A stretch of DNA of 64,000 bases from Salminus brasiliensis. Lineage: Eukaryota > Chordata > Actinopteri > Characiformes > Bryconidae. This document shows, in pieces, positions 2,230 to 52,859 of the stretch. The stretch spans positions 26,936,987 to 27,000,986 of the forward strand of contig NC_132880.1 of assembly GCF_030463535.1 (NCBI RefSeq). The letters are read 5' to 3'. Position 1 is the first letter of the stretch. Each line of letters starts with the position of its first letter. The position numbers and the translations under genes are program-made. The notes under the pieces are model-generated. The model did no database searches. It saw only the letters and a list, made by a program, of their open reading frames with translations, and was not told the origin of the DNA.

Positions 2230-3835
2230 GGGTTTAATTACTGGCTGGCGTGACTCTGGGCCTCCCCCGAAGGGCAGCACCCGACATCCAGCCCAGCTCC
2301 ACGGTCCCGACAAAACTCTCGGAGTCCAGAATGTGGCGGGAGGGCACCCAGGATTGTCCCTCTGGGCCATAACCCTCCCAGTCCACTAGATACTGGAGCC
2401 TGCCCCGGACCTGACGAACATCCAGAAGGCGTCTGACGGTAAAGGCCGGTGCACCGCCAACTGTACGCAGGCCCAGTGGATCGGTGGGACCCACGGAACC
2501 CAAGACGAGAAGGTGGGATTAATACATCGAACATCGAAGGGGGAAGGGCAAGGCGGTAGGCAACAGGATTGACCAGGCGAAGGATCTAGAGTGCTCCGAT
2601 ATATAACGAGAAGCCAACTTGCGGGGAGCACCACACCAGGGTAGATCCTTAGCCGAAAGCCAAACCCGTTGCCCAGGACAATAGTTTGGAGTTGGCCTTC
2701 GCCTCCTTCGGGACCTGCGGGCTTTCTGCAAGGTTTTCTGACAGTGCCTGACCATTTGTTTAGCCGACTGGACCCCCGTTCCTGTCTCCTGTACTGGGAA
2801 CATGAACGGAGCATACCCGTACTGGCACTCAAAGGGTGACATTCCCAGGGACGAGTACCAGAGGGTGATATGTGCGTACTCTGCCCAAATCAGTTGGTCA
2901 GACCAGGTGGATGGTGAGGAGGAAGCCAGACAGCGGAGGGTACGCTCCAGGTCTTGATTGATCCTCTCTGTCTGGCCATTGTGAGGCTGGTCGGAACAAT
3001 AATCGAAATTGAACTGAGTGAAGAACAATCCCCACCTGGCCTGACGTGGATTAAGGTGTTTGGCCTGCTGGATGTAGGCCAAATTCTTGTGATCCATCCA
3101 GACCCGGAAGAGATGTTTTGCTCCCTCAAGCCAGTGTCTCCACTCCTGTAGCACGAGCTTGACCGCCAGTAATTTGTGGTCACCCACATCGTAAGTAAGT
3201 TCTGGGTCAGAATGGACAACTGGGGCCGTAGTCAACAGGCCCCTTAGGGTGTTGAACGCTTCCTAGACTTCTGTGGACCAGACAAACTTTCCCAATGTCT
3301 TCCTCATCAAAGCGGTCAAAGTAACTGCCACGGAGCCAAAATTCCTCACAAAGAAGTTGGCAAAACCCAGGAAGCACTGGACTAGGTGTACAGAGGTTGG
3401 CCTGGGCCAGTTTTCCACGGCTTTGATCTTGGCTGAGTCCATGGGCAGGGTGTTGTGGGACACGACAAAGCCCAAAAAGGAGAGTGTCATAGATGAGAAT
3501 GTCATCCAAATAGACAAAAACATACCTTTCCAAAGCCTCCCTAAATAAAGGACCTCGTTGATGTACCATTGGAAGACGGTGGGCGCAATCATCAAACCGA
3601 ATGGCATGAAATGCCCAGACGGGGTGATGAATGCCGTCTTCTACTCATCACCCTCTTTGACCCTGACCAAGTTGTAGGCACTGCGCAGATCCAGCTTGGT
3701 GAGGTCATGAGGAGTAATGGTTAGCAGTCCTTAATTGTTTTTATTGAGGCCTCTGTAGTCAATACAGGGTCTCAACACTCCATCCTTCTTCCCCACGAAG
3801 TAGAAGCCGTCCCCAGCCTGTGCCTTACATATTTC
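2230..3835 (-). pseudogene. Ty3/gypsy retrotransposon pol relic with chromodomain
   Basis: Read on the minus strand from 3,835 downward, the order is reverse transcriptase (GKKDG, DYRGLN, LDLRSAYNLV, then MPFGL and FLGFANFF motifs), RNase H ([20 protein letters not shown]), the C-terminal half of the integrase ([12 protein letters not shown]) and a chromodomain ([17 protein letters not shown]) near 2,340-2,420. This order is that of chromodomain-bearing Ty3/gypsy elements. The reading frame is broken by stop codons in the RT and by several frameshifts. An internal deletion near 2,990 joins the RNase H end directly to the late integrase, removing the integrase zinc finger and most of its catalytic core. 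No intact LTR pair is evident. The element is dead. Confidence 0.9.
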
Positions 3836-4073: not shown

Positions 4074-4384
4074 CCATTTTGAATAGATTTGAGTTTGTAT
4101 AGCAACTGGGATAGTGTCTGTGTTTTTGGGTTATGCTGTTGTTGTAGTTCTAGGTCATTTGTTTGGTTGTTTTAGTTGCTGTGTTAGTTAATTTCTGTGT
4201 TGGGGTTATTTCCTTTGTTCTGGATCATTTCTGTGCATTTCTGTGCATTATATTAAATTATCTTTTATTTCTAGACATGTTTTTAGTCATTTGGATTGTG
4301 CTGATATATCTGTAGAAAATTCAGCATTGTCTTCTTTTGATGTAATTCAACAGTATGTCACAAAGACAGTGAAAATATACTAAA

Positions 4385-4660
4385 TGGACAAAAGTATAGG
4401 GACACCTGCTCATTTATTGTTTTTTTAAATCAAGGGTATTAAAAAAGAGTTTGTCCTTTTGTGGTTGGGGTAACTGGCTCTATTGTCCAGGAAAGGCTTT
4501 CAACTACATTTTGGAGCATTGGTGTTAAGATTTGTTTGCATTCAGCTACAAGAGTGCTAGTAAGGTCAGGAAGAAATTCAAAAGGTTTACTTAATATTAA
4601 GTTAAGATGAATTGTCTTGCAGCAAATTGTCCTTAAATTATGCATTCTGCTCTGGAAGGG
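4385..4660. repeat. DNA-transposon relic (in duplication copy A)
   Basis: It starts with a terminal-type motif reading TGGACAAAAGTATAGGGACA, a wording I know from a common fish DNA-transposon end, and continues into a body typical of that repeat. Only one end is recognisable. The 68-codon ORF on the minus strand is a remnant at best. Confidence 0.5.
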
Positions 4661-4920
4661 TAAAACCTAATGTTATTGAAGTATCCTTTTTCTCTGGTAT
4701 TGTTTTTTGTTCCACCCCTTCTTTGGAACTTCTTAGGGAGGTTTTGGCAGGTTTTCATACTTCTTAGGAAGTCTCAGTCTTCAGCCAAAAACGTACTTGT
4801 AGGATCATACACACCCACAAATGCACTTACAATAAATTTACAGTGACTTTAAAGCCCCCACAAAGTTTGCTTGTAGACTTCAACATAAAAAGGGAAGGTA
4901 TGTACTTTTCATCCGTACAG

Positions 4921-5713
4921 GCCAAATTCTTGTGATCCATCCAGACCCGGAAGAGATGTTTTGCTCCCTCAAGCCAGTGTCTCCACTCCTGTAGCACGAG
5001 CTTGACCGCCAGTAATTTGTGGTCACCCACATCGTAAGTAAGTTCTGGGTCAGAATGGACAACTGGGGCCGTAGTCAACAGGCCCCTTAGGGTGTTGAAC
5101 GCTTCCTAGACTTCTGTGGACCAGACAAACTTTCCCAATGTCTTCCTCATCAAAGCGGTCAAAGTAACTGCCACGGAGCCAAAATTCCTCACAAAGAAGT
5201 TGGCAAAACCCAGGAAGCACTGGACTAGGTGTACAGAGGTTGGCCTGGGCCAGTTTTTCACGGCTTTGATCTTGGCTGGGTCCATGCGCAGGGTGTTGTG
5301 GGACACGACAAAGCCCAAAAAGGAGAGTGTCATAGATGAGAATGTCATCCAAATAGACAAAAACATACCTTTCCAAAGTCTCCCTAAATAAAGGACCTCG
5401 TTGATGTACCATTGGAAGACGGTGGGCGCAATCATCAAACCGAATGGCATGACGAGGTTCTTGAAATGCCCAGACGGGGTGATGAATGCCGTCTTCTACT
5501 CATCACCCTCTTTGACCCTGACCAAGTTGTAGGCACTGCGCAGATCCAGCTTGGTGAGGTCATGAGGAGTAATGGTTAGCAGTCCTTAATTGTTTTTATT
5601 GAGGCCTCTGTAGTCAATACAGGGTCTCAACACTCCATCCTTCTTCCCCACGAAGTAGAAGCCGTCCCCAGCCGGGGAAGTGGATGGCCGGATAAACCAT
5701 AAGGCCTTACATA
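4921..5713 (-). pseudogene. Ty3/gypsy RT-RNase H fragment (duplicate)
   Basis: Duplicate of the RT and RNase H part of the relic at 3,077-3,835. It has the same stop codons, the same frameshift between the RT and RNase H frames, and the motifs MPFGL, FLGFANFF and DHKLLAVK. The integrase and chromodomain are absent because the duplication breakpoint lies inside RNase H. Confidence 0.9.
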
Positions 5714-6027
5714 TTTCCCATTTTGAATAGATTTGAGTTTGTATAGCAACTGGGATAGTATCTGTGTTTTTGGGTTATGCTGTTGTTGTAGTTCTAGGTC
5801 ATTTGTTTGGTTGTTTTAGTTGCTGTGTTAGTTAATTTCTGTGTTGGGGTTATTTCCTTTGTTCTGGATCATTTCTGTGCATTTCTGTGCATTATATTAA
5901 ATTATCTTTTATTTCTAGGCATGTTTTTAGTCATTTGGATTGTGCTGATATATCTGTAGAAAATTCAGCATTGTCTTCTTTTGATGTAATTCAACAGTAT
6001 GTCACAAAGACAGTGAAAATATACTAA

Positions 6028-6304
6028 ATGGACAAAAGTATAGGGACACCTGCTCATTTATTGTTTTTTTAAATCAAGGGTATTAAAAAAGAGTTTGTCC
6101 TTTTGTGGTTGGGGTAACTGGCTCTATTGTCCAGGAAAGGCTTTCAACTACATTTTGGAGCATTGGTGTTAAGATTTGTTTGCATTCAGCTACAAGAGTG
6201 CTAGTAAGGTCAGGAAGAAATTCAAAAGGTTTACTTAATATTAAGTTAAGATGAATTGTCTTGCAGCAAATTGTCCTTAAATTATGCATTCTGCTCTGGA
6301 AGGG
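6028..6304. repeat. DNA-transposon relic (in duplication copy B)
   Basis: Near-identical second copy of the fragment at 4,385-4,660, present only because the surrounding segment was duplicated. Confidence 0.5.
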
Positions 6305-6557
6305 TAAAACCTAATGTTATTGAAGTATCCTTTTTCTCTGGTATTGTTTTTTGTTCCACCCCTTCTTTGGAACTTCTTAGGGAGGTTTTGGCAGGTTTTC
6401 ATACTTCTTAGGAAGTCTCAGTCTTCAGCCAAAAACGTACTTGTAGGATCATACACACCCACAAATGCACTTACTATAAATTTACAGTGACTTTAAAGCC
6501 CCCACAAAGTCTGCTTGTAGACTTCAACATAAAAAGGGAAGGTATGTACTTTTCATT

Positions 6558-27946: not shown

Positions 27947-30900
27947 TTACATGGCACTGAAATAGAGAAACATAAATATTATGTTACAGATAATGCTTTT
28001 AATGAGCTTTTGTGAGTTTTAAGAAAGGAAATTTCAGAAAATACTCACCACTGGGGAAAGTCAGGTGCTCTGAATTCATTTATGTAGGTGTTTGCGTTCT
28101 CATTGTTAACAGTAAAGATCTCTTTAGCATTGAGCTGTCCACAGGCCCCACAAACTTTACCAGCCATCACCTCACTCACAGTCACTATAATCTCCTGTGA
28201 TAAACTGTAGGACACTTTGAGTTCAGAGCCCTTGTTAATGACTACAATTTCATCTTGAACAGTAACTGAGATCCCATTTCTTTCCACACTTCCCTTCTTC
28301 TTACCATTGACCTGCAAGATCAAAACAGTATAATAGTACAATAGACATTTATGAAAAAATGAATTGCTGCTAAGATGTAACATGTTAAAGGCCAAAAACT
28401 AAAATCAGCATGCAAATCATATTTTTACTCACCCAAATCTCATGCTTTGCACTGACAGTGACAAACATATCTTCAAAGAACACGTGCAAAGCAGCAACTT
28501 CATTCAGACCTCTTTTCCCACAGTCTAGCACCTGCACCACCACACGGAACCATTCAAGCACAGGAGCGTCATCACACACTTTGACTAAATCAAAAGCTCC
28601 CATAGATGTGAAAGTCCAAGAGTTCCCACTGAAGAGGGTGAAGGAGCCTCCAGCCTCCAGAAGGCATTGGTTTTGATGACACCCGAGTTCACCGTCCTTT
28701 ATGTTGCAAACTTCACTACTCTTACACTTCATTGTCTCATGCTTTACTTCACCAGAGGGAAGACAAGTCAGACGTTCCTCACAACCATCTGTGATGACAG
28801 TCTGACCGATCTGAAAGAGTCATGAAAGAAGTTCACAGTCATTGAGACACAATCAAGTTTTTTTTTGTTTTGTTTTTGTTTTGTTATTTTGTCACGGCAG
28901 ACAATGTCCTCAGTTAATAGACTGTTTAAGGAGTGAACTCAAAGCTGTAGACTAGGAAAGAACTTGGAATAAACTTAGCTTTGCAATAGAAAGTCACTTT
29001 TTTCTTGATTGTTGAGGCACAGGGATGTCATATAGAAGAGACTGTGTATTTGCTACGGTCAGTAGAAAAGTAAACCAGTTAAATGCAAAGGAAAGGAGGT
29101 AATTTGGAGGGATGTACTAATACAATGTACTGTATCAAGTTCTTGCAACAGGTCACACTGTATCATAATATTGTGACTATTGTGTTTTGGGAATAATGCA
29201 TCAACTATACACTATAAAAAACAAGGGAGCTGCCAGAGATTTTTGGCCCTGTGAAATGTTATGACACTGGGACCCATAACTCTTAACAGTTCTACCAAAA
29301 TACTCAATCATTAAATTTTTAGGAACCCCTTCCAATCACAGGCCCTTAGAATCATTCTAATTTTATGACTCTGTTGTGAACTGTGTATTTGGTCATGAAA
29401 CAGATTAAGATTTAATATTAAAATATGTTTTTTTTTTCTTTTCCTTTTTCTGAAACCTACCTTATAGGTGTGTCCATTCTCAAAGCAGCCACACTGATCT
29501 GCTTGAACGCAGCCCGTCCCATTGTTAAAGAATCCAGAGTCGCACATGCAGCCTTCAGCACAGATCTCAACATCACAGTTGATGATTTTAGTGAGACCAG
29601 GACAGGGTGTGTCACATGACTGGGCACACATTTCATAGTGACTGTTGGCTGGACATTTCAGAGCTAAAAGAAATAAGAACAGAAATATCAGTTAAATAGC
29701 AAAAGCATTACATTTTGCTCTTAAACATTTTCTGCTAGTAGTTGTTTACGTACGACAAAATGTTGATGTTCTCCAGTTTTTAACTGTAACTCCAAAGTTG
29801 TGACAGTCAATCATGTAAGCAGCAATGCTGTGACAGAGCATGTGGGAATCTCCATCCCCCATACAGACGTCATAGACACAATCTCTGAAGTAGGAATCCG
29901 GGTGAATGACACTGTGGCAGGCAGCGAATGGGCCTTGAGGGTTGGTAATAATGCTGCAGTCCTTTTCAAACACACTCTTCTTGTCTGCAGGACACTTCGG
30001 ACAGAGGTCACCACTGCAGCCATCATCACACACAACACCAGGAACAGCCACCTTCCATGCAGCTCCAAATGCTTGCAAATCTTTGGTTTCTTTACCATCT
30101 GGTAAAAAGTAATCATCGTTCTTGTTTCCATTAAAGTTTCCACACAAGCCACAGGTCTTCCCATGGTAGCTGCTGGGGACTGTAATGCTAATATGAAAGA
30201 CCATATCGTAGGCGACTCTCAGGCCAAAATCTGTAGTGATTACATTTTGATAGCCCTCCTGTTGGACCGTCACTTTTCCATTATTTAGATTCACAGGGAT
30301 GTTGGTCAAGATCCCATTGATCTAAAAATAAAATAATAAATATATATATATGGATATATATTTCATAAACATTTCATATGTTTCAAATATTTGTGTTATG
30401 ATAAAAAATATTTCATAATTTGCACTATTATAACTGTACTAACCATTATCTGGTGTAATTGATTCCTCCGCAGCACTAAAGTCATACCATCCACCTCCAC
30501 AGCAACCACCTTAGCTGCAGAAACATTTGGACTGACTTGGATCCCTTCCCATTTCTCATTCTCTACTACAACTTTAAACGGAGTGAGCTGTGTTGTCTCT
30601 AGGTGGCAAGCTTGAGCGGCAGTGTAGGTGCAAGTGCCTTGGAAGGTGAAGTTGGTGCCATCAAAAGTGCTGTAATGAGGGTCACCGTAGACGCTGCAGG
30701 TCCCATGAGAAACTGGATAGCAGTTTCGAATATTCTTGACAACTTTGCACTCCTGTCCAAATGGACAGCTGGCTGCTTTACAGTCTACTTGTTTGGTGGT
30801 TGGGTTACAGGTACACTGCTTTTGACATGCATCATCTGCCCAAAAGGTCTGGTTTGCCTCCAAGTAGCGTCTCTCCCCATCAGTGCTGTACACACAGCCA

Positions 30901-33900
30901 CACTGAGATTTAGGAACACACTTGTTACCACTACGGATATATCCCTCATTACAGACACAGGCTTGCACACAGTAGGCGACCGTGCAAGTTGCAGTCGCTG
31001 TGGGGTTCTCACAGGTGGCAGGACAAGGACTTCCACAATATTCAAAGTGACTGTTTTCAGTACACTGTGGGTTAGCTGTGTGGACATAAAACAAATATAA
31101 GAAGAAAGCCACAACTGAGCATTGTTGCTTGTAGTTCATTTCACTACAAGTAACACAGATTTCCATTTAAAAAATGAATTGAAAAATGATAAAAAAAAAA
31201 AAAAACATATGAAAAACCCTACAAAACTCTCAGACTGTAGTGTGTAGGTTATGTATTTTAGATGTCCCTATTGGTTCTAAACATAAACTTTAAGTGCTAA
31301 GTTAAACTGCTTATAGAAGTCAAATTATTTATTCACTAAAACTGAATACAGAATAGCAGTAAATACAAAGTGCCCAATATTTGTATTTTTTACCCAAAAG
31401 TGCCAATAAATACAAATACTTACAACAGTTACATTTTTTGAAAGATGCACATTTTGGGCCAGATGAAAATGTTCATTTGAAATCTTAGTCATTCAGTCAG
31501 TTTTTAAACTAACATTTTACTGTTTTTGTAGTATTCATACAGTTATACCAGTTATTTGCTTCTCAGTGCAATAATGATTTTTTAAAATAAAAGACTAAGT
31601 ATTTTCTGCTAGCCAACCAGCCTTCTTTTAATATTCATGAGACATTTTCATGAAAAAGGAAAAAGGTAAAAGTTATTTGTTTTGAAAGTAAGGGACGTAA
31701 TGAGTCACTGCATAAGGAAACAGTAAATCTGTATATAGACATAAATAATTTCCATAAACCTAGAAAGTGCCCCAAGATGCTGAATGCTGTTTTGAGGACA
31801 TATATTATATTATATATCTTTTTTTCTTATTATCTATTTTGTTGTTGTTGTGGCAGATTTTATGCATGAAATGTTCTGCACAAGCACTCCACAAATGTTT
31901 TCTCTTATAATACTTAAACTTTAGTGGAAACTGAAAATGAGTATGTTTTGGCTTGGTTTTTACCTTACAAATCTGTGACGAGACCTTATACACTTGCAAT
32001 CTACATTATTCAATCCCCATTGAACAATAGACTAATTGTTTGATTGCATGTTAGAAATATAAGTCAAGAGAGTTGTTCAAAAATTTCAGATAAGTGAATA
32101 CTGCCTAGTAGAAACAAGGAACAGGATACAAAAGGAGAGTATGGGCAATTGAGATGCCACTAGAGATACTAGAGATACAGCTGGAGGCAGGTGAAGGAAC
32201 ACTAGCTATACTACTTGCAGACTACTAATATAGACAAACGCTACAGGGTTTTCAGTCTTACCAGAGTTTTTAAGCAGTGCTCCCACATGCAAGTCCTTAA
32301 ACTTTCTCATTGATTCCTGGCATTATCTATGTGCATGTTGGGTATGTCTCTGCACCCCTTCACACTATCAGTGTGTTGTCGTTCCCCATAGGCTACCTTC
32401 TCTTAGGTATTTTGTGTAATGGTTGACTGCCTGGCCTGTGTTAAAGGCTGTAAGAACAAGTTACTATTTTCTGACTGACTTGCAGACAGAGTTACTGCTG
32501 TGTTTACTCTTGCAACTGCAACTTTACAACACAAACAATACCTTGCTAAACAAGAATTTTGTATTTAAACGTAAAGGTTTTAACAGCCACAAAGTAATCA
32601 AGTATTTTGAGTCAGTTTAAATCAAGAAATTATAATCAAGAAATTATAATTATGATAAATAAATCTTTTTAAGAATGACTACAAATGCAGTTGTTCAGAT
32701 AACTAAAAATTTGTGCATCAGGTTGCCTTAAAATTTAGAGTTTTCTTGTTATATTAGTTGTTTTTGGCTATTTCAATTGTTCTAATTTGATTGATTTATT
32801 GCAAACAGCTGAAAGTTTGTAAATGTTGCTAATAAACCTAATTTGCTATTGGGATTGAATCGTTTTGATTGCAACTGTATATTCTAGGTGAGTTGCTGTG
32901 GAATCCTTTATGAGCTTCTATAAATTATGTGTCTTCTTCTATAAATATCATACATTATTAACTAAGCAAAATGTTTAAGTAATTAAATAAATAAATAAAT
33001 AAATAAGAAAGTTACAACTTACGACAGTCTAAGAGGTTTCTCCAATTGTATACTTGAATCCCTGCACGCTGGCAAGCGTCTGTATACGTCTGTGCTGTTC
33101 TGCACAGAAAATTCTTGTATCCTTTTCCCATACAGTAGTCCAGCAGGCAGTTCTTATAAAATACATCAGTATCAATAAGGGTATTGCATTCACGGAGTGG
33201 ACCGTGAGAGAGAATCGCAACAAAGCCACAGAAAGCCTTTGCTGCTAGGAGGTCAAACCATGATTCTGATTTACAGCTCTCACACTGCCCTGTACAATCA
33301 TCAGTGCAATGGGAATCCCCAGGTAAGCCTGGAACCCTCCAGCTTTTTCCCAGGGCTGGAATATTGTCTGCCACAGAACCACTAGGAGTAGTGAGGTCAT
33401 CATTCTTCTTCCCATTGAAGTTTCCACACATCCCACACATCCTTCCCATAAAGCTTTCTGGTATCTTCACCACCAGATATTGCTCCCAGTCGTATTGCAC
33501 AGACAGACCAAAGTCTGTTTCCAAAACAACTGAAAGGCCACTTTGCCAGAGTTTCACTCTGCTATTGTCCAAAGTAACTGGAAGATTCCAAAGTGAATTG
33601 TTAATCTGAAACAAATAAAAAGCAATTTTTGATTTCAGGTTGTTTAGGAGTTTTTGTGAATGCATTTGACATTTTTAATCATTAGAATCATATTCAGATA
33701 AATTTCTTCACTAAATGCAAAAACACAAAAAGAAACCCTTACTATAACAAGTCCAGTTTGGTGCCGGACAATGGTGATAGTGGTATTATAGACCGTAATC
33801 ATAACCATCTGTACAGAAGTGGATTTTGAGCTGCCAGTGCGTTCATTCTTGGCCTGTACTTCAAAGATTGGGTGTGCTTTGTCCGGGCGGCAGTTCTTTG

Positions 33901-36038
33901 CCATGATGTAGGCGCAGTTACCCATGAAGTTGTAATAAGTGCCATCAAATGTGCGGTAATGTGGGTCACCCATGACCCAGCAAGTTCCTACTGGTCCAGA
34001 AGGGGGAGTGATAGGAGGGACAGTAGTTGTGGTAGTGGATGTTGTAGTTGTAGTAGTGGTGGTGGTAGTTGTAGTTTCTGAAGTTATGGGATTAACAGGA
34101 GCAAATGTTTCTGGAGCAAAAGGGTCTGGTGGAAAAAAAGGTTCAGGGGAAAGAAAATCTGGAAAGGGAGGTAAAATAGAATCCATTTTCAAACATGTGG
34201 CCTGACTGTCCACCATCTGACACCGTTCACCTTCCAAGCATGTAACACTGTTGCAGTCTTGGAGTTCTGCAAGGAGAAGAAAATATAGCTTACATTTAAA
34301 TGTCTTTTTCTGCTTTTCCACATAATACTTGTAAAATCCACTAGTGAACAAGATGTGAATTTTTTGATTTTAGTACTAGCTTTGTAGTCAAGGTTGTATA
34401 GGCCAAGGACGGGAGAGACAAGACCAAGGGACTCATCGAGTCTGAGATTAAGATTTCAACAAACAAACTCTCTATCATATATTATATATAATATCATATT
34501 ATATTTTTATAATTATAATATAAATAATATATTTTTTTAATTTTTGTGAGCAATAGTGTTACAAGCTAACACAGCATTTTACAATGAGACCATCAGGTGG
34601 TTGTGTGATATTGTAGGAAAGATTTGCTGCTGACAACCATGAATTCTGTTCTCTACCAGAAGTGAAAGTGGATCAATCCCTTAAAAAGCCTATAGCCTGC
34701 CGTTATTATAAACTTCTATTAACAAAGAATAAACTCACCAGTTTGTACAGACATAATTACTGAAAAATATGCCTTAATTTGTATTAAGTCCTGCTGCGGC
34801 AAGGGGTTAAAGGTGCAAGACAACTGTCCAGTGCACAAGAGCAAGTCCACATTTGAATGACTCAAAAGAAACAAAATTTTTTGCAGTGGCCTATTCTATG
34901 CCCTGATGTGAACGCATGTTTTGTATTTCCCTATGTTCCTCCTGTCTATTTAGAATGACAAACATGCTAAAATGTAAGTCTCTGTTATTTTATGTTGCCT
35001 GCACCCCTTGGATCCTTTCTCAATAGTAAGAGAAGCTAACTGAACAGCCGTGCCAGCCAGAAAAAGATTCTGAGGCTTGTTTCTTCTACATCTTTTAGCA
35101 TTTCATTTTACCTTGCAGCTGTTACCCATAGTGTACTCATTATGGTCTATTTTTTCACAATATCAAGAGAAATATTTTTAAAATATTATTAGATTATACA
35201 TTTTAAATGTAAAATACATTTTAAGTACATTGTATTTGTAAAACTTTCAACTATTAAAATTCACCATTAGAAGTTTTAAGTTAAATTTTCTCTTACCTTG
35301 TATGTTAGCAAACTGTTTCCCAGCAGGCCCAGCAAAGGAGAGCCCTGAAAAACAATAGTTGTAAATGAATGTTACCAAAAACGACTAACATTCATTCATT
35401 CTACTTATTAGGTCATAAGAGAATTTTCCTTTTACACAAACTCAATGTTGTTTTCATTGCAATGCTCATTAAAGACAGTGGCCTGTTTGTCTGCTTTATA
35501 GTAAAATATTCATGATGGACAACACTTTAAACATTCTTTAAAGAACTACTATTAAAATAGTTCTATTGTAAGGTATGTTATTGAAATGAATCACGTGTCT
35601 ATGTATGACATATTGTAACAGCTCTATGAAGTATAATGTAACCATAAAGTAAGTCAAATGTTATTCTTTATAAAACAAAAGCTGAAAAGTGCCGCAAACT
35701 GTTGCATCTGCAGTTTCTGAGCAGTTTCTGAAAAATCTAATCACAATTGTTTTGCTAATAAATCAAGTTGGACCAACTATCTAAAATCACAACAGTAGTA
35801 TGAGGAAGGAAAGGAAGAAAAGAACATGAAAGCGTGTGGTGCCAAATCAGTAGGACATGGACCTTAATGCAACACTCACTGTCTTAAAACAACAGCCATG
35901 CCTACTATTTAACGTTTTGAAAAAAGTTATTGATACATGGGTTAAATTGATGTGAATTATGTATATGTCAGCAGAGACAAGGGGCTTACCACAGAGCAGC
36001 AGGGCTGTGAAGCTAAGTAGTGTTCCTTTCATGTTCAT
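27947..36038 (-). CDS. FCGBP-like secreted VWD-domain protein, copy 1 (lacks the IgGFc-binding domain)
   Basis: Coding exons in transcript order: 36038-35990, 35344-35297, 34266-33743, 33605-33023, 31075-30444, 30321-29754, 29663-29461, 28810-28433, 28311-28049, 27956-27947. They join to 1,085 codons plus stop without a break. Order: signal peptide (MNMKGTLLSFTALLLCG); a 48-nt remnant exon; a Cys-rich start and Pro/Thr linker (about residues 33-120); VWD 1 with GDPHYRTFDG and CGMCGNFNG; C8; TIL; a VWC-like segment; VWD 2 with GDPHYSTFDG and CGLCGNFNG; C8; TIL; and a degenerate third VWD that lacks GDPH but keeps CGACGQ. GDPH is the autocleavage site and CxxC the oligomerisation motif known in VWD proteins. 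The family is secreted in mucus or on eggs, but the target of this one is unknown. The last coding exon holds just ten bases. It differs from copy 2 by a 1,254-nt in-frame loss in exon 3. Confidence 0.92.
31130..32940. other. Extra intron DNA found only in copy 1
   Basis: The intron between the first C8 and the TIL exon is about 1.95 kb here but 142 bp in copy 2. Homology between copies breaks near 31,128 and resumes near 32,945 (ATTATTAACTAAGC). The extra sequence is AT-rich with no clear terminal repeats, and I recognise no family in it. It is an insertion in copy 1 or a deletion in copy 2. Confidence 0.6.
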
Positions 36039-36044
36039 GTCTGC

Positions 36045-36150
<106 letters not shown>

Positions 36151-36268
36151 TTTTTACACTTTACACTTAGAAAATTATAAAGTACAACATTCAGGGAAAT
36201 AGATTCAATAACCCAGACTCAGTACATTAGTTCTAAGCACACATTGTCATTTTTCCAAAAGTACTTAC

Positions 36269-36370
36269 CTTGACTTGAAACAAGGCAACAAGTGCAGTGT
36301 TTCTGGATTTTCCTGCTTAAATTCTCTTGGGCATCTTTACAATACCCAATCAGTGCTGTGCAGAGCCTCC
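36269..36370 (-). promoter_or_regulatory. First (untranslated) exon and core promoter of copy 1
   Basis: A donor GTAAGT after TTTCAAGTCAAG ends the first exon at 36,269. Upstream on the minus strand lie a TATA-like AATTTAAG (36,316-36,323) and an inverted CCAAT box (36,346-36,350) at about 23 bp from each other. The same block, with the same spacing, precedes copy 2 at 52,587-52,621. The start site would be near 36,290. Confidence 0.6.
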
Positions 36371-36599
36371 TCAGTCATGTGTTGTGCCACTGGACATTCA
36401 AACACGTGGAAGGTTCAATCTTCTGAAAGTTTACTAAACTCATAATACTTGGGTGGCACTCAGGGTAGCAGTCAGAAATCTTATCTCACACGTCCTAATG
36501 TTCTGAAGGGAAAATCAATCTCAGTTTAATGAAGTGTCAAATCATTCCATTCTTGGGTGTAGAATGGTAAAATAAATTGCAACAGAACTAGCATACAAA

Positions 36600-44167: not shown

Positions 44168-47100
44168 TCACATGACACTAAAAAAGAAGAAAACAATTCT
44201 TACACACACAAAATTAAGAAATGGAGAATACTAAAACTACAGTAAAACAGTTTAAAACATCAACATTCAGGGTTGACATGAAAATGATAACTTGAAGTCT
44301 TAACTTGATTTTGTTTGATATGGAAATTATGCTAGTTATTAGCACAAAATCCTCTAAAATATATGGTATATAGTTCACAATGTTATTCAAGTGTTTAGAA
44401 TCACCAATTTCAATAATCTAAAATCTGTTTATGTGTATGCAATGATTCTCATATCATATCTAATATTTTAAACAATTTGTGAGAAGCTGTAAATAAAAAA
44501 GAATTCTTCAATGATGGACAAAGCTGCAGTTGACAATAATTGAGAAAAATTTAGAGCTGTATAGAAAACTATAGTTTTAACTTATTTAAAAAAAAGGAAT
44601 GTACAAAATGCCAAATCAGCAACCAAATTTTGCTGATCAATAGCAATAGCATTTCAAAGTAGTTTTGTGACAAAAATGACTGTAAATAGATAATAGCTTG
44701 TTGTTTAACAAAATGTTATTTTTTAGCATGTGATAAATTTCTGTTCTTCCCAAAACTGTGAAGAAACGTTCAGCTCATAATCAATGACATTTTATTCCAA
44801 ACATTTGAATGCTATTATTTACAATAATACACATTATATTTACACAAATATTGTTCTGTTAACATGATATTTAAAAACACTTACCATTGTGGGAAGTCCA
44901 GAGCACTGTGCTTGTTCATGTAGGTGTTTATGTCATTATAAGAACTGATAACAGAGATGGGTTGGTTAACATTGAGCTGTCCACAGGCACCACAAATGTT
45001 ACCAGCCATCACCTCACTCACAGTCACTATAATCTCCTGTGATAAACTGTAGGACACTTTGAGTTCAGAGCCCTTATTAATGACAACAATTCCATCTTGA
45101 ACAGTAACTGAGATCCCATTTCTTTCCACAGCTCCTTTCTTCTTACCGTTGACCTGCAAGATGTAACAATATACATTTTCAAAAGAAATGCAAAATCCTT
45201 AAAAATAGTTATTATCTAGGTTTAAAAACAGTATATTCAAATTGTAAAGCTTTGTAAATGTACATGTTATGGGACAAAAGCTAAAATCAGCATGCAAATC
45301 ATATTTGTACTCACCCAAATCTCCTGCTTTTCACTGACAGTGACAAAAATATCTTCAAAGAACACATGCAGAGCAGCAACTTCATTTAGACCTGTTTGCT
45401 CGCAGTCTTGCACCTGCACCACCACACGGAACCACTCGAGCACAAGAGTGTCATCACACACTTTGACTAAATCAAAAGCTCCCGTAGATGTGAAAGTCCA
45501 AGAGTCCCCGCTGAAGAGGGTGAAGGAGCCTCCAGCCTCCAACATGCATTGCTTTTGATGACACCCGAGTTCACCGTCCCTTATGTTGCAAACTTCGTCA
45601 CTCTTACACTTCATTGTCTCATGCTTTACTTCACCAGAGGGAAGACAAGTCAGACGTTTCTGACAACCATCTGTGATGACAGTCTGACCAATCTGAAAGT
45701 GGACAGTCATTAAAACACAAATTTCAATATCCCATGAAACACAACATATCTTCTATTGATCAAGTGTGGTTTGAGGGTGAACCAGAACTGTAGACTGGAA
45801 ATGATTTTAGAGAACTTGCATGATTTTCTACTTTGCAACTGTGTTTTTATTTTTTGTTTTTGTTTTTTTTTATCAAATGAGAGCTTAGTATTCAAGTCAT
45901 ATGGGAACAGTGACAAGCCTGGGAGGTGGAAGATCAATGATGTAGGAGATTATCAAGGAGAGAAATTTCTTTTACCTCATGGCGACATTGTGTACAACAT
46001 TTTTTTCATATAAAACAGCAGCATTAGGCAAAAATTTGTATTTCGCTACTGGGATCCCCCTACAGGTACATAGTGGAATTGCCTTTTACACTGCAGATCA
46101 GGCTCTGACATCAACATGCATGTATTGACAAGTTGGAATGGAAGAAGCATGTGGACTGACAGCAATATTACAACACTAAAAAAGACAAAAAAGACTCGCA
46201 GCGTTACTCTGTTCTTGCGAGAGGTCAACTAAAGTTGCATAGCGCAGTAGCAGACATTTCAGGCCAAAGTGTCAGTGATTGCCATTCTCCCTATTACATT
46301 CAGTGGAGCATGAAAATGAGCGACAAAATCACTTTAGGTCACAAATAATAAATAATAGCTTCCAATTGCTTTTAAAACTAGTCCAATGTGGCCTTGGGGC
46401 AGTACATTTTACAATGAAAAATGGCTAATGTGCAGGTATCTTTTTTCTGCAAAATAAAAACATAAGATACATTACATTCATTACATGCATTTAAAAGTAC
46501 TGAAGCCATAATCTGAGGTCACTGCCCCAACGTTTTACCCTAAAAGTTACACCTAAGTTGCTTTTTTTCTGAGGGTGTGTGTCTGTAATTCAACTGATGT
46601 TGCATAGATTACTTTTAATCACCTTTTTTTGTAACCTACCTCATAAGTGTGTCCATTCTCAAAGCAGCTGCACTGATCTGCTTGAACGCAGCCCGTCCCA
46701 TTGTTAAAAAATCCAGAGTCGCACATGCAGCCTTCAGCACAGATCTCAACATCACAGTTGATGATTTCAGTGAGGCCAGGACAGGGTGTGTCACATGACT
46801 GGGCACACATTTCATAGTGACTGTTGGCTGGACATTTCAGAGCTAAAAGAAATAAGAACAGAAATATCAGTTAAATAGCAAAAGCATTACATTTTGCTCT
46901 TAAACATTTTCTGCTAGTAGTTGTTTACATACGACAAAATGTTGATGTTCTCCAGTTTTTAACTGTAACTCCAAAGTTGTGACAGTCAATCATGTAAGCA
47001 GCAATGCTGTGACAGAGCATGTGGGAATCTCCATTCCCCATACAGACGTCATAGACACAATCTCTGAAGTAGGAATCCGGCTGAATGACACTGTGGCAGG

Positions 47101-50100
47101 CAGCGAATGGGCCTTGAGGGTTGGTAATAATGCTGCAGTCCTTTTCAAATACACTCTTCTTGTCTGCAGGACACTTCGGACAGAGGTCACCGCTGCAGCC
47201 ATCATCACACACAACACCAGGAACAGCCACCTTCCATGCAGCTCCAAATGCTTGCACATCTTTGGTTTCTTTACCATCTGGTAAAAAGTAGTCATCGTTC
47301 TTGTTTCCATTAAAGTTTCCACACAACCCACAGGTTTTCCCATGGTAGCTGCTGGGGACTGTAATAATAATATGGTAGACCATATCATAGGCAACTCTCA
47401 GGCCAAAATCTGTAGTGATTACATTTTGATAGCCCTCCTGTTGGACTGTCACTTGTCCATTATTCAGATTTACAGGGATGTTGGTCAAGATCCCATTGAT
47501 CTAAAAAAATGGGAGTAAATATATCTCATAAACATTTCATATGTTTCAAATATTTGTGTTATGATAAAAAATATTTCATAATTTGCACTATTAGAACTGT
47601 ACTAACCATTATCTGGTGTAATTGATTCCTCCGCAGCACTAAAGTCATACCGTCCACCTCCACAGCAACCACCTTAGCTGCAGAAACATTTGGACTGACT
47701 TGGATCCCTTCCCATTTCTCATTCTCTACTACAACTTTAAACGGAGTGAGCTGTGTTGTCTCTAGGTGGCAAGCTTGAGCGGCAGTGTAGGTGCAAGTGC
47801 CTTGGAAGGTGAAGTTGGTGCCATCAAAAGTCTTGTAATGAGGGTCACCGTAGACGCTGCAGGTCCCATGAGAAACTGGGTAGCAGTTTCGAATATTCTT
47901 GACAACTTTGCACTCCTGTCCAAATGGACAGCTGGCTGCTTTACAGTCTACTTGTTTGGTGGTTGGGTTACAGGTACACTGCTTTTGACATGTATCATCT
48001 GCCCAAAAGGTCTGGTTTGCCTCCAAGTAGCGTCTCTCCCCATCAGTGCTGTACACACAGCCACACTGAGATTTAGGAACACACTTGTTACCACTACGGA
48101 TATATCCCTCATTACAGACACAGGCTTGCACACAGTAGGCGACTGTGCAAGTTGCAGTCGCTGTAGGGTTCTCACAGGTGGCAGGACAAGGACTTCCACA
48201 GTATTCAAAGTGACTGTTTTCAGTACACTGTGGGTTAGCTGTGTGGACATAAAACAAATGTAAGAAGAAAGCCACAACTGAGCATTGTTGCACCTGTTTT
48301 CTGTAAATATCATGAATTATTAACTAAGCAAAGTGTACAAGTAATTAATTATTTAAATAAATAAATAAATTACAACTTACGACAGTCTAAGAGGTTTCTC
48401 CAGTTGTGTACTTGAATCCCTGCACGTTGGCAAGTGTCTGTATACGTCTGTGCTGTTTTGCACAGAAAATTCTTGTATCCTTTTCCCATACAGTAGTCCA
48501 GCAAGCAGTTCTTATAAAATACATCAGTATCAATAAGGGTATTGCATTCACGGAGTGGACCGTGAGAGAGAATCGCAACAAAGCCACAGAAAGCCTTTGC
48601 TGCTAGTAGGTCAAACCATGATTCTGATTTACAGCTCTCACACTGCCCTGTACAATCATCAGTGCAATGGGAATCCCCAGGTAAGCCTGGAACCCTCCAG
48701 CTTTTTCCCAGGGCTGGAATATTGTCTGCCACAGAACCACTAGGAGTAGTGAGGTCATCATTCTTCTTCCCATTGAAGTTTCCACACATCCCACACATCC
48801 TTCCCATAAAGCTTTCTGGTATCTTCACCACCAGATATTGCTCCCAGTCGTATTGCACAGACAGACCAAAGTCTGTTTCCAAAACAACTGAAAGGCCACT
48901 TTGCCAGAGTTTCACTCTGCTATTGTCCAAAGTAACTGGAAGATTCCAAAGTGAATTGTTAATCTGAAACAAATAAGAAGCAATTTTTGATTTCAGGTTG
49001 TTTAGGAGTTTTCATGAATGCATTTGACATTTTTAATCATTAGAATCATATTCAGATAAATTGCTTCACTAAATGCAAAAACACAAAAAGAAACCCTTAC
49101 TATAACAAGTCCAGTTTGGTGCCGGACAATGGTGATAGTGGTATTATAGACCGTAATCATAACCATCTGTACAGAAGTGGATTTTGAGCTGCCAGTGCGT
49201 TCATTCTTGGCCTGTACTTCAAAGATTGGGTGTGCTTTGTCCGGGCGGCAGTTCTTTGCCATGATGTAGGCGCAGTTACCCATGAAGTTGTAATAAGTGC
49301 CATCAAATGTGCGGTAATGTGGGTCACCCATGACCCAACAAGTGCCTACTGGTCCAGAAGGAGGCGCGATAGGAGGGACAGTAGTGGTGGTAGTGGATGT
49401 TGTAGTTGTAGGGGTACTGGAATGTGTAGATGTAGGTGTAGTAGTAGGGGTAGTTGTAGTAGTAGTGGTAGGTGTAGAAGTAGTGGTAGGTGTAGTGGTT
49501 GTAGTAGGGGTAGTTGTACTAGTAGTGGTAGGTGTAGTGGTAGTAGTAGGGGTAGTTGTAGTAGTAGTGGTAGGTGTAGTAGTAGTAGTGGTAGGGGTAG
49601 TTGTAGTAGTAGTGGTAGGTGTAGTAGTAGTAGTGGTAGGGGTAGTTGTAGTAGTAGTGGTAGGTGTAGTAGTAGTGGTAGGTGTAGTAGTGGTAGGTGC
49701 AGTTGTAGTGGCAGTAGGAGGCAGAAGTGTAGGAAAAGTTTCAAATGGAGGAAATGGTATATTTGTGAAGAAAGAATCCATCTTGGAACATGAGGCTTTA
49801 TTGCCAACCATTTGACACCTTTCACCTTCTGAACATATGATGGTGCTGCAGTCTTGGAGTTCAGCTAGAGAAAAATAATGTAATTGGTCAACATACATGT
49901 AAAATGTCTTGTAAAAGCTCTTTAATAGTTACTTTCGTCAACTATAAAATGTTGGTCTCCTGCCTGCTAACTAGCTAACAGCTTATAATGGCAATATGTA
50001 TGCCATTCTGTAAGGGATATTCTTTCAAAGAAAATCAACTGAACCTATCATATTTGCAATTTTTAGCTTCTTAAGGAGTCTTAAAGAGTGATTTACACAA

Positions 50101-51927
50101 TTATCAATCATTGAATTGGAAGTGACAACACCGATATAGAATGGATATTTTTAAATAGTAGTTTTACAATTCCAAACAGCTGTCCTTAGTGCTTTTTATT
50201 TGACTAAACTACACTAAACAGCAAAGATAATAAATAGATTTTGCTTTACCTTGTATATTGCTGAAGGCTGAGGTTCCATAACCATTAACACGAGCCACAC
50301 CAAAGCTATAGAGGCCAAATGGCGAGTGTGGATGGGCTAGCTGATAGAAGTCTGAATCTTCACCGTAACTGAACTGTGTCCATGAATATTCACTTCTGCC
50401 AATTTTGTTCCATGTAAGACCTTCCGGTGTCAGGGGTTTGCCCAATTTCAGCCCACCAAGGTCCTCACTGCGCCCTATTACAATCGCTTCATTTGTAAAA
50501 CCAGTTTGTGTGACCAGCGTGTAGGAGGTGCTAAAGTGGTCCGTTGGCAGGATGTTCATCAAGAAAGGGTCATTCAGCTTTCCTTCTTTGTTGATTCCTC
50601 CATTAAACTCATACAGCACTTGAATCCCTTGATCAGCAGTGATGTAGAGAGATTCTGGCCATTTTATATGTATGTCATAAAACTCTCCAGCCTTTATTTC
50701 TTTTTCTGAGACTGTCCCCTCCTGACCACTGACTTTCACTAAAGTGTTTTGTGAGGCTTGAATGTAGACAGTGTCATATTTGCTCTCAGGTTTATGGTAG
50801 TCAATTGGTACAACAATGAATTCATTCCCCCAGCTACTGACAGGAAGTAGTTGTTCATACACATGGTCACATCCAGTGAAAAACCAAGTGCAGCTGTGGC
50901 CTGTGAAGACTGCCACTGGTTGCTTAGCAATTACTCTGGAGCCTGACAGGTCTCCTACTTTGGGATTATATTGCCTTTGTTCATTGTCCTCTACCGTTTG
51001 GATCTGTATGCTCTCAAATGGCTCTAAGTCAATTGTGAGTTTGCTTCCTTGAGGGTAATCTTTTCCCTGGAATTTCACTCCGCTAGTCAAGTGGACCTCA
51101 ACAGAATTTTTGTCCTTATAGTTGGTGATGGAGAACTCTTTGTAGGCATTAGGTATTATCTTACGGGACTTCGGAGTCTTTGGAGTAAAAACATAGTACT
51201 CTGTTCCCCATTCTTTGACAGGGTAGATTACTGAAGCACCTGTTGAGAAGATCTTATAGTTGACAGATGACACTAAAATGTCTTGGTCAGATTCCACCCG
51301 GACTGTCTGTTGGTTTTTTGCACTTCCAAACATCTCCACCTCTTTGGGCATCTCGAAGATTTCTCCTTGTCCTGGTTGAACAGTTTTCTCATAGACGTTT
51401 CCCAATGCAGTTACTCTCACACTGGCACTCAGTTTGACAGATGGATTAAAAACCTCAACCAGAAGTCGTTTAGGCTCATGTCTTTTTTCGAGGTAATTCT
51501 GCATAAAGGATATAGCAAACTGTTTTCCAGTGGGCCCAGCGAAGGACAACCCTAAAAAGGTAGAGCTTTAAATGACATACCATCTTCAGCAATGTAAATA
51601 TTGTAAATAATGTAAATTTCTTTTGGGATAAGTTAATGAATCAAATTCAATTCAATCAGTTTCTGAAGTTTGAGGAACTTGATAAAAGACAAAACTGTAG
51701 TTTAAGAGCAGAAGGAATCATGACATAGACATATGGACCAAATCAACAGACCTGATTACTTACAATCATTCACTCACCAACCACTGTAATAAACTACTCT
51801 TTGCCTACTTAAAAGAGATATATGGGTTAAATTGGAGAAATGTCAGTAAGCATAAGTAGCATCAAAAAAGGAGCTTACCGCAGAGCAGCAGGGCTGCAAA
51901 GCAAATCAATGTCCCTCTGATCTCCAT
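44168..51927 (-). CDS. FCGBP-like secreted VWD-domain protein, copy 2 (with IgGFc-binding domain)
   Basis: Coding exons in transcript order: 51927-51879, 51551-50250, 49864-49101, 48963-48381, 48238-47607, 47500-46933, 46842-46640, 45692-45315, 45153-44885, 44177-44168. They join to 1,585 codons plus stop without a break. Order: signal peptide (MEIRGTLICFAALLLCG); a 434-residue single-exon domain that I recognise as the IgGFc_binding domain heading FCGBP-type proteins (about residues 17-450); a Cys-rich start; a Thr/Pro mucin linker (about 475-590); VWD 1 (GDPHYRTFDG, CGMCGNFNG); C8; TIL; VWC-like; VWD 2 (GDPHYKTFDG, CGLCGNFNG); C8; TIL; and a degenerate third VWD (CGACGQ, no GDPH). Human FCGBP has many more VWD units, so this is a short relative. 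Fish have no IgG, so Fc binding should not be assumed from the domain name. The protein is probably secreted into mucus. Confidence 0.94.
49380..49712 (-). repeat. Coding minisatellite: Thr/Pro mucin linker of copy 2
   Basis: Units of PTTTTT, PTTTTTT and PTTTTTTT repeat across about 110 codons, including PTTTST variants. Copy 1 has only a short Thr run here (34,030-34,080), about 80 residues less in total exon length. The Thr density predicts dense O-glycosylation. Confidence 0.95.
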
Positions 51928-52345
51928 GTCTGCAGGAGAAAAGGATTTTCACATTTTTTATGAAATATAATTCAATCATTATGCACTATATAAATGCAGG
52001 TGATGGTAATTGTTTTAATTACCCATGCCTACTTGATTTAATACAACTTATGTCATCTAATGACAACACGCCACTGTCTAAGAAATACATTTGAGAAGAA
52101 TACATGGCTCGGTAAACTAGAGTTTGAATCTTTTGTAGTTGTCACCGCACTGCAAAAGAGAAAAAATAAAATAAAAAAATATATACAACTTCTAGCCAAG
52201 GATCCATGCCTTTCCTTAGCCCTATAGCACCCTCTTTTCTCTGTAACCAGAACCAGAGTTTCAATTGCTCATTGTAGAGCTCTACAATATTTATTTCTGA
52301 AAATGTCTGACATTTAAAAAAAATATAATAAAAAGATTTTTTTTT

Positions 52346-52399: not shown

Positions 52400-52535
52400 G
52401 AAAAATCCCCATACTGAGAAAATTACACTGCTTAACCATTCATAATATCCTCTTCAAAATGTGGGGCTGCCTAACAATCTCAAAAAAGTCTCCAGATCTT
52501 ACCAAGAGGTTATTACCATTTCAAAAGTTTCTTAC

Positions 52536-52640
52536 CTGGACTTGAAACAAGGCAACAAGTGCAAACCGTTTCTCCTTTTCATCCTGCTTAAATTCTCTTG
52601 GGCATCTTCACAGTAGCCAATCAGTGCTTTGCTGGCACTG
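52536..52640 (-). promoter_or_regulatory. First (untranslated) exon and core promoter of copy 2
   Basis: A donor GTAAGA after TTTCAAGTCCAG ends the first exon at 52,536. Upstream on the minus strand are the same TATA-like AATTTAAG (52,587-52,594) and inverted CCAAT box (52,617-52,621) as in copy 1. Similarity to copy 1 continues for about 250 bp further upstream. Confidence 0.6.
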
Positions 52641-52859
52641 GACATTCAAATATGTGGAAAGTCCAGTCATGCTAATGTTTACTCTCCTCTTAATAATTGG
52701 GTGCTAATCAAGGCTGTCACATCTTATCTTATACTCCTTAATGTCCTGGTGTGAAAATCAACCTCAGTTTCAAATCGCTGTATCAAATCACTAAAGTCTT
52801 TGGTGCAGAACCGTCAAGAAATTAAGAATTGCACAAAAAGTAGCATACAGTCCAGATGC

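Follow-up and report, generated by a model that had tools for sequence, protein, structure and literature searches.

Copy 1 of an FCGBP-like gene pair in the window (the whole 64-kb stretch of Salminus brasiliensis DNA analysed here) is best read as a real, probably old, working headless relative of a known family. Its third exon holds only the two ends of the exon that, in the neighbouring copy 2, encodes the N-terminal IgGFc_binding domain, here called the head. We put at about 0.68 the probability that copy 1 is an intact FCGBP-type gene that lost its head by one in-exon deletion before the split from Astyanax, has undergone gene conversion since, and encodes a headless spacer in shared mucus assemblies.

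Exon 3 in copies 1 and 2

Both genes lie on the minus strand, with the following parts.

36253..36597, minus strand: upstream region of copy 1 with its non-coding exon 1 (72% identity to copy 2 at 52,519-52,849)
35990..36040, minus strand: copy 1 exon 2, with the start codon and the signal peptide's hydrophobic core (MNMKGTLLSFTALLLC), assigned by eye
35297..35344, minus strand: copy 1 exon 3, stump of the IgGFc_binding exon (GLSFAGPAGKQFA + NIQ), 48 nt, phase 1-1
33743..34266, minus strand: copy 1 exon 4, Cys module (QDCNSVTCLEGERCQMV...C), short Thr-rich linker and start of VWD1
27947..33605, minus strand: copy 1 exons 5-11, rest of VWD1, C8, TIL, VWD2, C8, TIL and C-terminal VWD
33605-33023, 31075-30444, 30321-29754 and 29663-29461, minus strand: copy 1 exons 5-8
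28810-28433, 28311-28049 and 27956-27947, minus strand: copy 1 exons 9-11, stop codon at 27,949-27,947
44600..51929, minus strand: copy 2 coding region, 1,595 aa; 44,600 is only the edge of the extracted stretch
51929-51879, 51551-50250, 49864-49101, 48963-48381 and 48238-47607, minus strand: copy 2 exons
47500-46933, 46842-46640, 45692-45315, 45153-44885 and a last, uncertain exon from 44755, minus strand: copy 2 exons, continued
50250..51551, minus strand: copy 2 exon 3, complete IgGFc_binding domain (PF17517) and likely signal-peptide cleavage region, 1,302 nt
49380..49720, minus strand: copy 2 expanded Thr/Pro mucin-like linker, in an exon 240 nt longer than that of copy 1

The copy 1 stump consists of the first 13 and the last 3 codons of the long copy 2 exon, and the difference in length is 1,254 nt, or 418 codons. 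Both exons are entered and left in phase 1. The acceptor and donor are TTTTTCAG and GTAAGA in copy 1 (35,344-35,297), and CTTTTTAG and GTAAAG in copy 2 (51,551-50,250). Over the first 13 codons, the copies differ by five synonymous changes and one replacement (Ala/Thr); three mismatches fall in the last 12 nt and one in the last 10. The ten-exon join of copy 1, with GT-AG junctions, gives an open frame of 1,085 aa, and the exons of copy 2 join into 1,595 aa, the last exon being uncertain. Pfam identifies the long exon of copy 2 as IgGFc_binding (PF17517, E 2.3e-65). In copy 1, it finds three VWD, two C8, two TIL and two TILa domains and no match to PF17517 or to a MAM domain. Since PF17517 is missing, we call copy 1 FCGBP-like rather than FCGBP; its common descent with FCGBP-like proteins is indicated by its top relatives, named IgGFc-binding protein-like or VWFD domain-containing, and the core trees agree. 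By eye, the first two VWD units of both copies carry MGDPH and YGDPH, and the last VWD of either copy has no GDPH. When the domain was compared with the window by tblastn, copy 2 (E 0) and the stump (E 0.003) were found along with three matches at E >1, and no other remnant had E <=1.

The earlier note had described the 48-nt exon as the start plus the end of the 1,302-nt one with 1,254 nt gone, which holds base by base. It had also stated that the splice sites, phase and downstream frame were kept in copy 1, as the GT-AG junctions and the 1,085-aa frame confirm, and that the lost segment was the IgGFc-binding domain, with which the Pfam match to the copy 2 exon agrees. Its broader proposal, that a gene with the domain had turned into a partner without it, frame and splice sites being kept, is supported by the exon structure, the loss of PF17517 and the headed ancestry described below. 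The role that the note suggested, of a competitor or structural variant in the same polymer, would be conjectural.

The lost 418 aa contain exactly two Cys, seven residues apart (CTWFFTGC), and the same two are present in all ten domain-bearing relatives inspected. Further Cys occur in most of these ten, many of them within the signal peptide, Cys module or VWD1, which the compared segment also took in; P0155 and P0054, at least, have Cys beyond the two typical of the head domain. If the two head Cys pair with each other, removal of the head would strand no Cys outside it. The predicted structure of the head domain (pLDDT 87) is made mostly of beta strands. Foldseek found no credible match to it in the PDB (TM-scores of 0.05-0.21 among the matches listed), so the structure gives no functional hint, and the one match among PDB sequences was a chance match (E 0.82).

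The position of the cut may be related to secretion. By eye, the likely signal-peptide cleavage region (GLSFAG) is formed by the first codons of the head exon, and in copy 3, another gene of the cluster, the domain exon shares its 5' boundary with that of copy 2. Because the head exon has phase 1-1, loss of the whole exon would keep the frame and remove the likely cleavage region, which would explain how an in-exon cut survived where whole-exon loss might not. A [G/A]GP[A/T] stretch near the end of the signal peptide, resembling the first residues of the head exon, was seen by eye in 14 of 24 headless teleost models, weak evidence since the motif is short. One 1,254-bp deletion inside the domain exon would have removed the N-terminal IgGFc_binding (H) domain from copy 1 and retained the first 13 codons with the likely signal-peptidase region, the last 3 codons, the splice sites and the 1-1 phase, so that the product should stay secreted and in frame. 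The N-terminus of copy 1 is signal-peptide-like by eye, secretion being a reading of the sequence. With at most a very short shared sequence at the junction, a plain deletion fits. Origin by conversion from a spliced cDNA was considered and rejected, as the removed segment does not begin with GT.

Headless relatives in teleosts

With copy 1 as the protein query, 136 matches were obtained at E <= 1e-10. Among them, the predicted Astyanax mexicanus protein P0003 (1,062 aa) is 83% identical over 100% of copy 1. Its N-terminus reads MKGTLLSFAALLLCGLSFAGPAGKQ followed by E-AQDC, in the order of copy 1 and without the domain. Its signal peptide, stump and Cys module, as well as the Thr-rich linker and the VWD units, are near-identical to those of copy 1, and the head is absent; the differences are a stump five codons shorter and a core that is not homogenised with copy 2 of the present genome. 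The earlier note had pointed to related species as the place to look for the same short exon, and P0003 carries it at the protein level, in the shorter form. The difference in breakpoint could reflect a further small deletion, a different choice of splice site or an independent loss. With residues 1-62 of copy 1 as the query, P0003 was the sole match at E <= 10 (E 4.6e-15, 11 candidates), and the copy 1-type stump is known from one other genus, Astyanax. Metynnis P0004 (80%) begins inside VWD1 and leaves the N-terminal head region uncovered. The loss of the head would most likely predate the lineage split from Astyanax.

The headed state is the older one, as it is carried by FCGBP-like proteins of teleosts, amphibians, reptiles and birds and by copy 3. 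In the electric eel, the partial protein P0054 combines a domain of the copy 2 type (70%) with a Cys module of the same kind after it. For the core tree, 24 headless, 23 headed and 2 unclear proteins were sampled from at least 174, together with copies 1 and 2; copy 3 is in none of the core trees. Headless labels were given by eye on the N-termini, and the set includes P0046 and P0030, both without a clean signal-peptide start; headed labels follow the PF17517 label, a few of these proteins being without a full N-terminus. The first tree was built without six chosen proteins in which the start of VWD1 was not located, and the second located the start by BLAST. Headed and headless labels change seven times on the core tree (6-7 in bootstraps), at least four changes being forced by strongly supported branches, a count that gene-model errors may inflate and that conversion affects at the copy 1/copy 2 pair. 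These changes place the headless genes of catfishes, of clupeiforms, and of salmonids together with spiny-rayed fishes apart from the characiform one. Like copy 1, these other models have a signal-peptide-like start with VWD1 almost directly after it and no PF17517; unlike it, they belong to separate core-tree lineages and, by eye, do not have the Cys module in the same form. Copy 1 looks like one case of a headless variant that arose repeatedly in fishes. Our literature search (titles and abstract openings, with subscription papers mostly outside its coverage) found no account of headless FCGBP genes in fish.

The shared core and competing accounts of the loss

The likeness of the two copies is uneven. 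A near-identical tract covers the VWD1-VWD2 core and begins about 1.2 kb downstream of the stump exon, within the Thr-rich linker.

29443..34074, minus strand: copy 1 part of the presumed gene-conversion tract, which spans the VWD1-VWD2 core in two blastn blocks (96.4-96.6% identity)
46622..49435, minus strand: copy 2 side of the presumed tract, from blastn

Inside the core, introns 4, 5, 6 and 7 are 97, 89, 93 and 99% identical over their aligned parts, whereas introns 1, 2, 3 and 8, outside it, are 46-58% identical and intron 9 is 74% identical (global alignment). Silent differences between the copies number 34 at 493 sites in the tract and 62.5 at 195 sites outside it (Fisher p 1.7e-15, with exons 3 and 11 left out and the sites not truly independent). 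The linker part of exon 4, which aligns poorly, inflates the rate outside; once it is set aside, this rate is 30.5/150, still about three times that in the tract. At sites compared with Astyanax P0003, copy 1 alone agrees with Astyanax 21 times in residues 1-113, copy 2 alone 4 times, and the copies stand together against Astyanax 11 times. The corresponding counts are 8, 1 and 76 in residues 114-820 and 17, 13 and 25 in residues 896-1085, where copy 1 and Astyanax are not singled out; taken alone, such counts look the same under kinship and under fast evolution of copy 2. On the core, an AU test rejected the grouping of copy 1 with Astyanax (p 1e-5).

This uneven identity is best explained if copies 1 and 2 are old duplicates whose core underwent gene conversion once the species had separated. 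As the head exon lies outside the tract, the likeness of the core does not date the loss of the head, which can predate what the similarity suggests. By ending in the Thr-rich linker, conversion would neither have restored the head in copy 1 nor have removed it from copy 2. Copy 2 differs from copy 1 in two places, the head and the linker, which both precede the shared core. The near-identical tract is interrupted in copy 1 by about 1.8 kb within intron 5 (31,076-33,022) that copy 2 does not have, either a later insertion or the joint of two conversion tracts.

Four other accounts have to be weighed against a single, shared and old loss. Near-identical cores provide a setting for mis-assembly, and a 1.25-kb segment of copy 1 could have been collapsed or dropped. 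However, the segment in question falls where the copies have diverged and not in the near-identical tract, the flanking introns of the two copies differ in length and sequence, the stump carries its own substitutions, and the window has zero N. Above all, with the predicted Astyanax P0003 headless at the same place, an assembly collapse, the outcome that the earlier note had set against its own reading, is very unlikely. It is also improbable that copy 1 is a decaying pseudogene. It has lost a domain and its expression is a prediction; nevertheless, its ten exons have GT-AG junctions with no stop in 1,085 codons, a full-length headless relative exists at 83%, and the changes in the first 13 stump codons relative to copy 2 are mostly silent. 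The upstream region and first exon are about 70% alike in the two copies, and dN/dS between them is 0.07-0.45 in nine of the 11 exon parts (exons 3 and 11 gave no estimate), although the low values in the tract could derive from copy 2 through conversion. An ancestral headless state, with a later gain of the domain by copy 2, is hardly credible. Headless relatives are indeed common in teleosts, but the stump matches the domain exon at either end, copy 3 and the proteins of teleosts, amphibians, reptiles and birds all carry the domain in this position, and in electric-eel P0054 a similar Cys module follows the domain.

A stronger case, still an unlikely one in our judgement, can be made for independent losses of the head in copy 1 and in Astyanax P0003. 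The stumps differ by five codons and so do not share breakpoints, repeated head loss in teleosts is suggested by the label changes on the tree, and the core tree pairs copy 1 with copy 2 and not with Astyanax. This pairing is explained by conversion, given that silent and intron divergence is far larger outside the tract; moreover, the head-proximal sequence of copy 1 is nearer to that of Astyanax than copy 2's is, and a 15-nt deletion within the stump would suffice to produce the difference in breakpoint. We therefore favor one loss before the split from Astyanax. Later gene conversion would have kept the VWD1-VWD2 cores near-identical, with heads and linkers staying different, and the pair would supply a common core in two forms, one with a head and a mucin-like stalk (copy 2) and one headless (copy 1). 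Copy 1 would most likely encode a headless subunit of mucus that is secreted and has its core in common with copy 2. If transcribed and secreted, this protein may join the same mucus assemblies as a spacer and lower the density of heads.

Family context and the gene cluster

'IgG-binding' is a mammalian label, and to our knowledge fish lack IgG. For what the IgGFc_binding head does outside mammals, a headed and a headless neighbor with nearly identical cores, together with a headless relative in another genus, offer a ready comparison in fish mucus. The pair also suggests that gene conversion can homogenise one region of a mucus protein and leave another to diverge. We tentatively extend this to a general, and rather doubtful, proposal: the head of fish FCGBP-like proteins may be a dispensable module that is removed repeatedly, the gene layout would channel the losses to in-exon deletions that leave a stump, conversion would keep the core alike, and the ratio of the two genes would set the density of heads in mucus. 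If the head is dispensable in this way, headed and headless neighbors would form a tunable two-part system.

Mammalian FCGBP and the vertebrate cluster share with the present genes the VWD-C8-TIL repeats, the GDPH and CG(L/M)C motifs and the C-terminal VWD. The H domain at the N-terminus of mammalian FCGBP is present in copy 2 and absent from copy 1. Human FCGBP is described as consisting of H (450 aa, N-terminal), R (12 repeats) and T parts, the repeats being followed by a C-terminal VWD (PMC9354016), and copy 1 has fewer VWD units. Long internal tandem duplicons of 96% identity or more are reported in human FCGBP (PMC4079513), and the family may be prone to homogenisation. According to the account in PMC11237159, a cluster of IgGFc-domain genes is common in vertebrates, most members having one IgGFc domain followed by VWD units; the screen targeted IgGFc-domain genes, used VWD queries too and may include headless members. 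The same source describes the PRITs, amphibian skin and glue proteins of this gene family that, like copy 1, underwent modular remodelling after tandem duplication. They are its mirror image, as they keep the IgGFc domain and have lost VWD units. Zonadhesin and fish zonadhesin-like proteins, as outlined in PMC1325057, are similar in their VWD and TIL units, mucin-like stretch and, in fish, gut expression, but these proteins carry MAM domains, which were not found in copy 1. In salmon stomach, IgGFc-binding protein-like is listed among eight top-ranking products at the transcript and protein levels (PMC10761930), which indicates that the FCGBP-like family is expressed in fish mucosa and is not evidence for copy 1.

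Eight PF17517-like exon matches were found in the genome.

Copy 2 exon 3, in the window
C3:27,013,969: copy 3
C11:4,393,853: one exon
Near C1:89.9 Mb: three exons
C1:97.1 Mb: two weak matches

Copy 3 is the third gene of the cluster (C3:27,002,600-27,015,300), just right of the window, and has an IgGFc head and several VWD units. It resembles the long Pygocentrus protein P0122 (2,185 aa), the heads being 81% alike; a candidate 'copy 4' behind it was rejected, as it proved to be the latter half of a single long gene of the Pygocentrus P0122 kind. A second cluster, on the plus strand at C1:89.92-89.98 Mb, has three IgGFc-domain exons about 30 kb apart, about 28% identical to copy 2 (tblastn). 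The first exon of VWD1 has at least 52 matches in the genome. Five were obtained with the 5' block of copy 1, namely copy 1 itself, copy 2 in three pieces and, on the opposite strand, the block's own AT run, in a search that skipped simple repeats and scored two candidates. A long AT dinucleotide and poly-T run (36,046-36,150) stands directly before the start-codon exon of copy 1, and the acceptor of this exon lies where the poly-T run ends. Elsewhere in the window, there is a recent tandem duplication with two pairs of matching segments, 3,076-3,818 with 4,919-5,673 (97.9%) and 4,074-4,912 with 5,718-6,556 (99.5%). The open reading frame at 2,519-3,262 (minus strand) has, by eye, the appearance of a retroelement integrase fragment.
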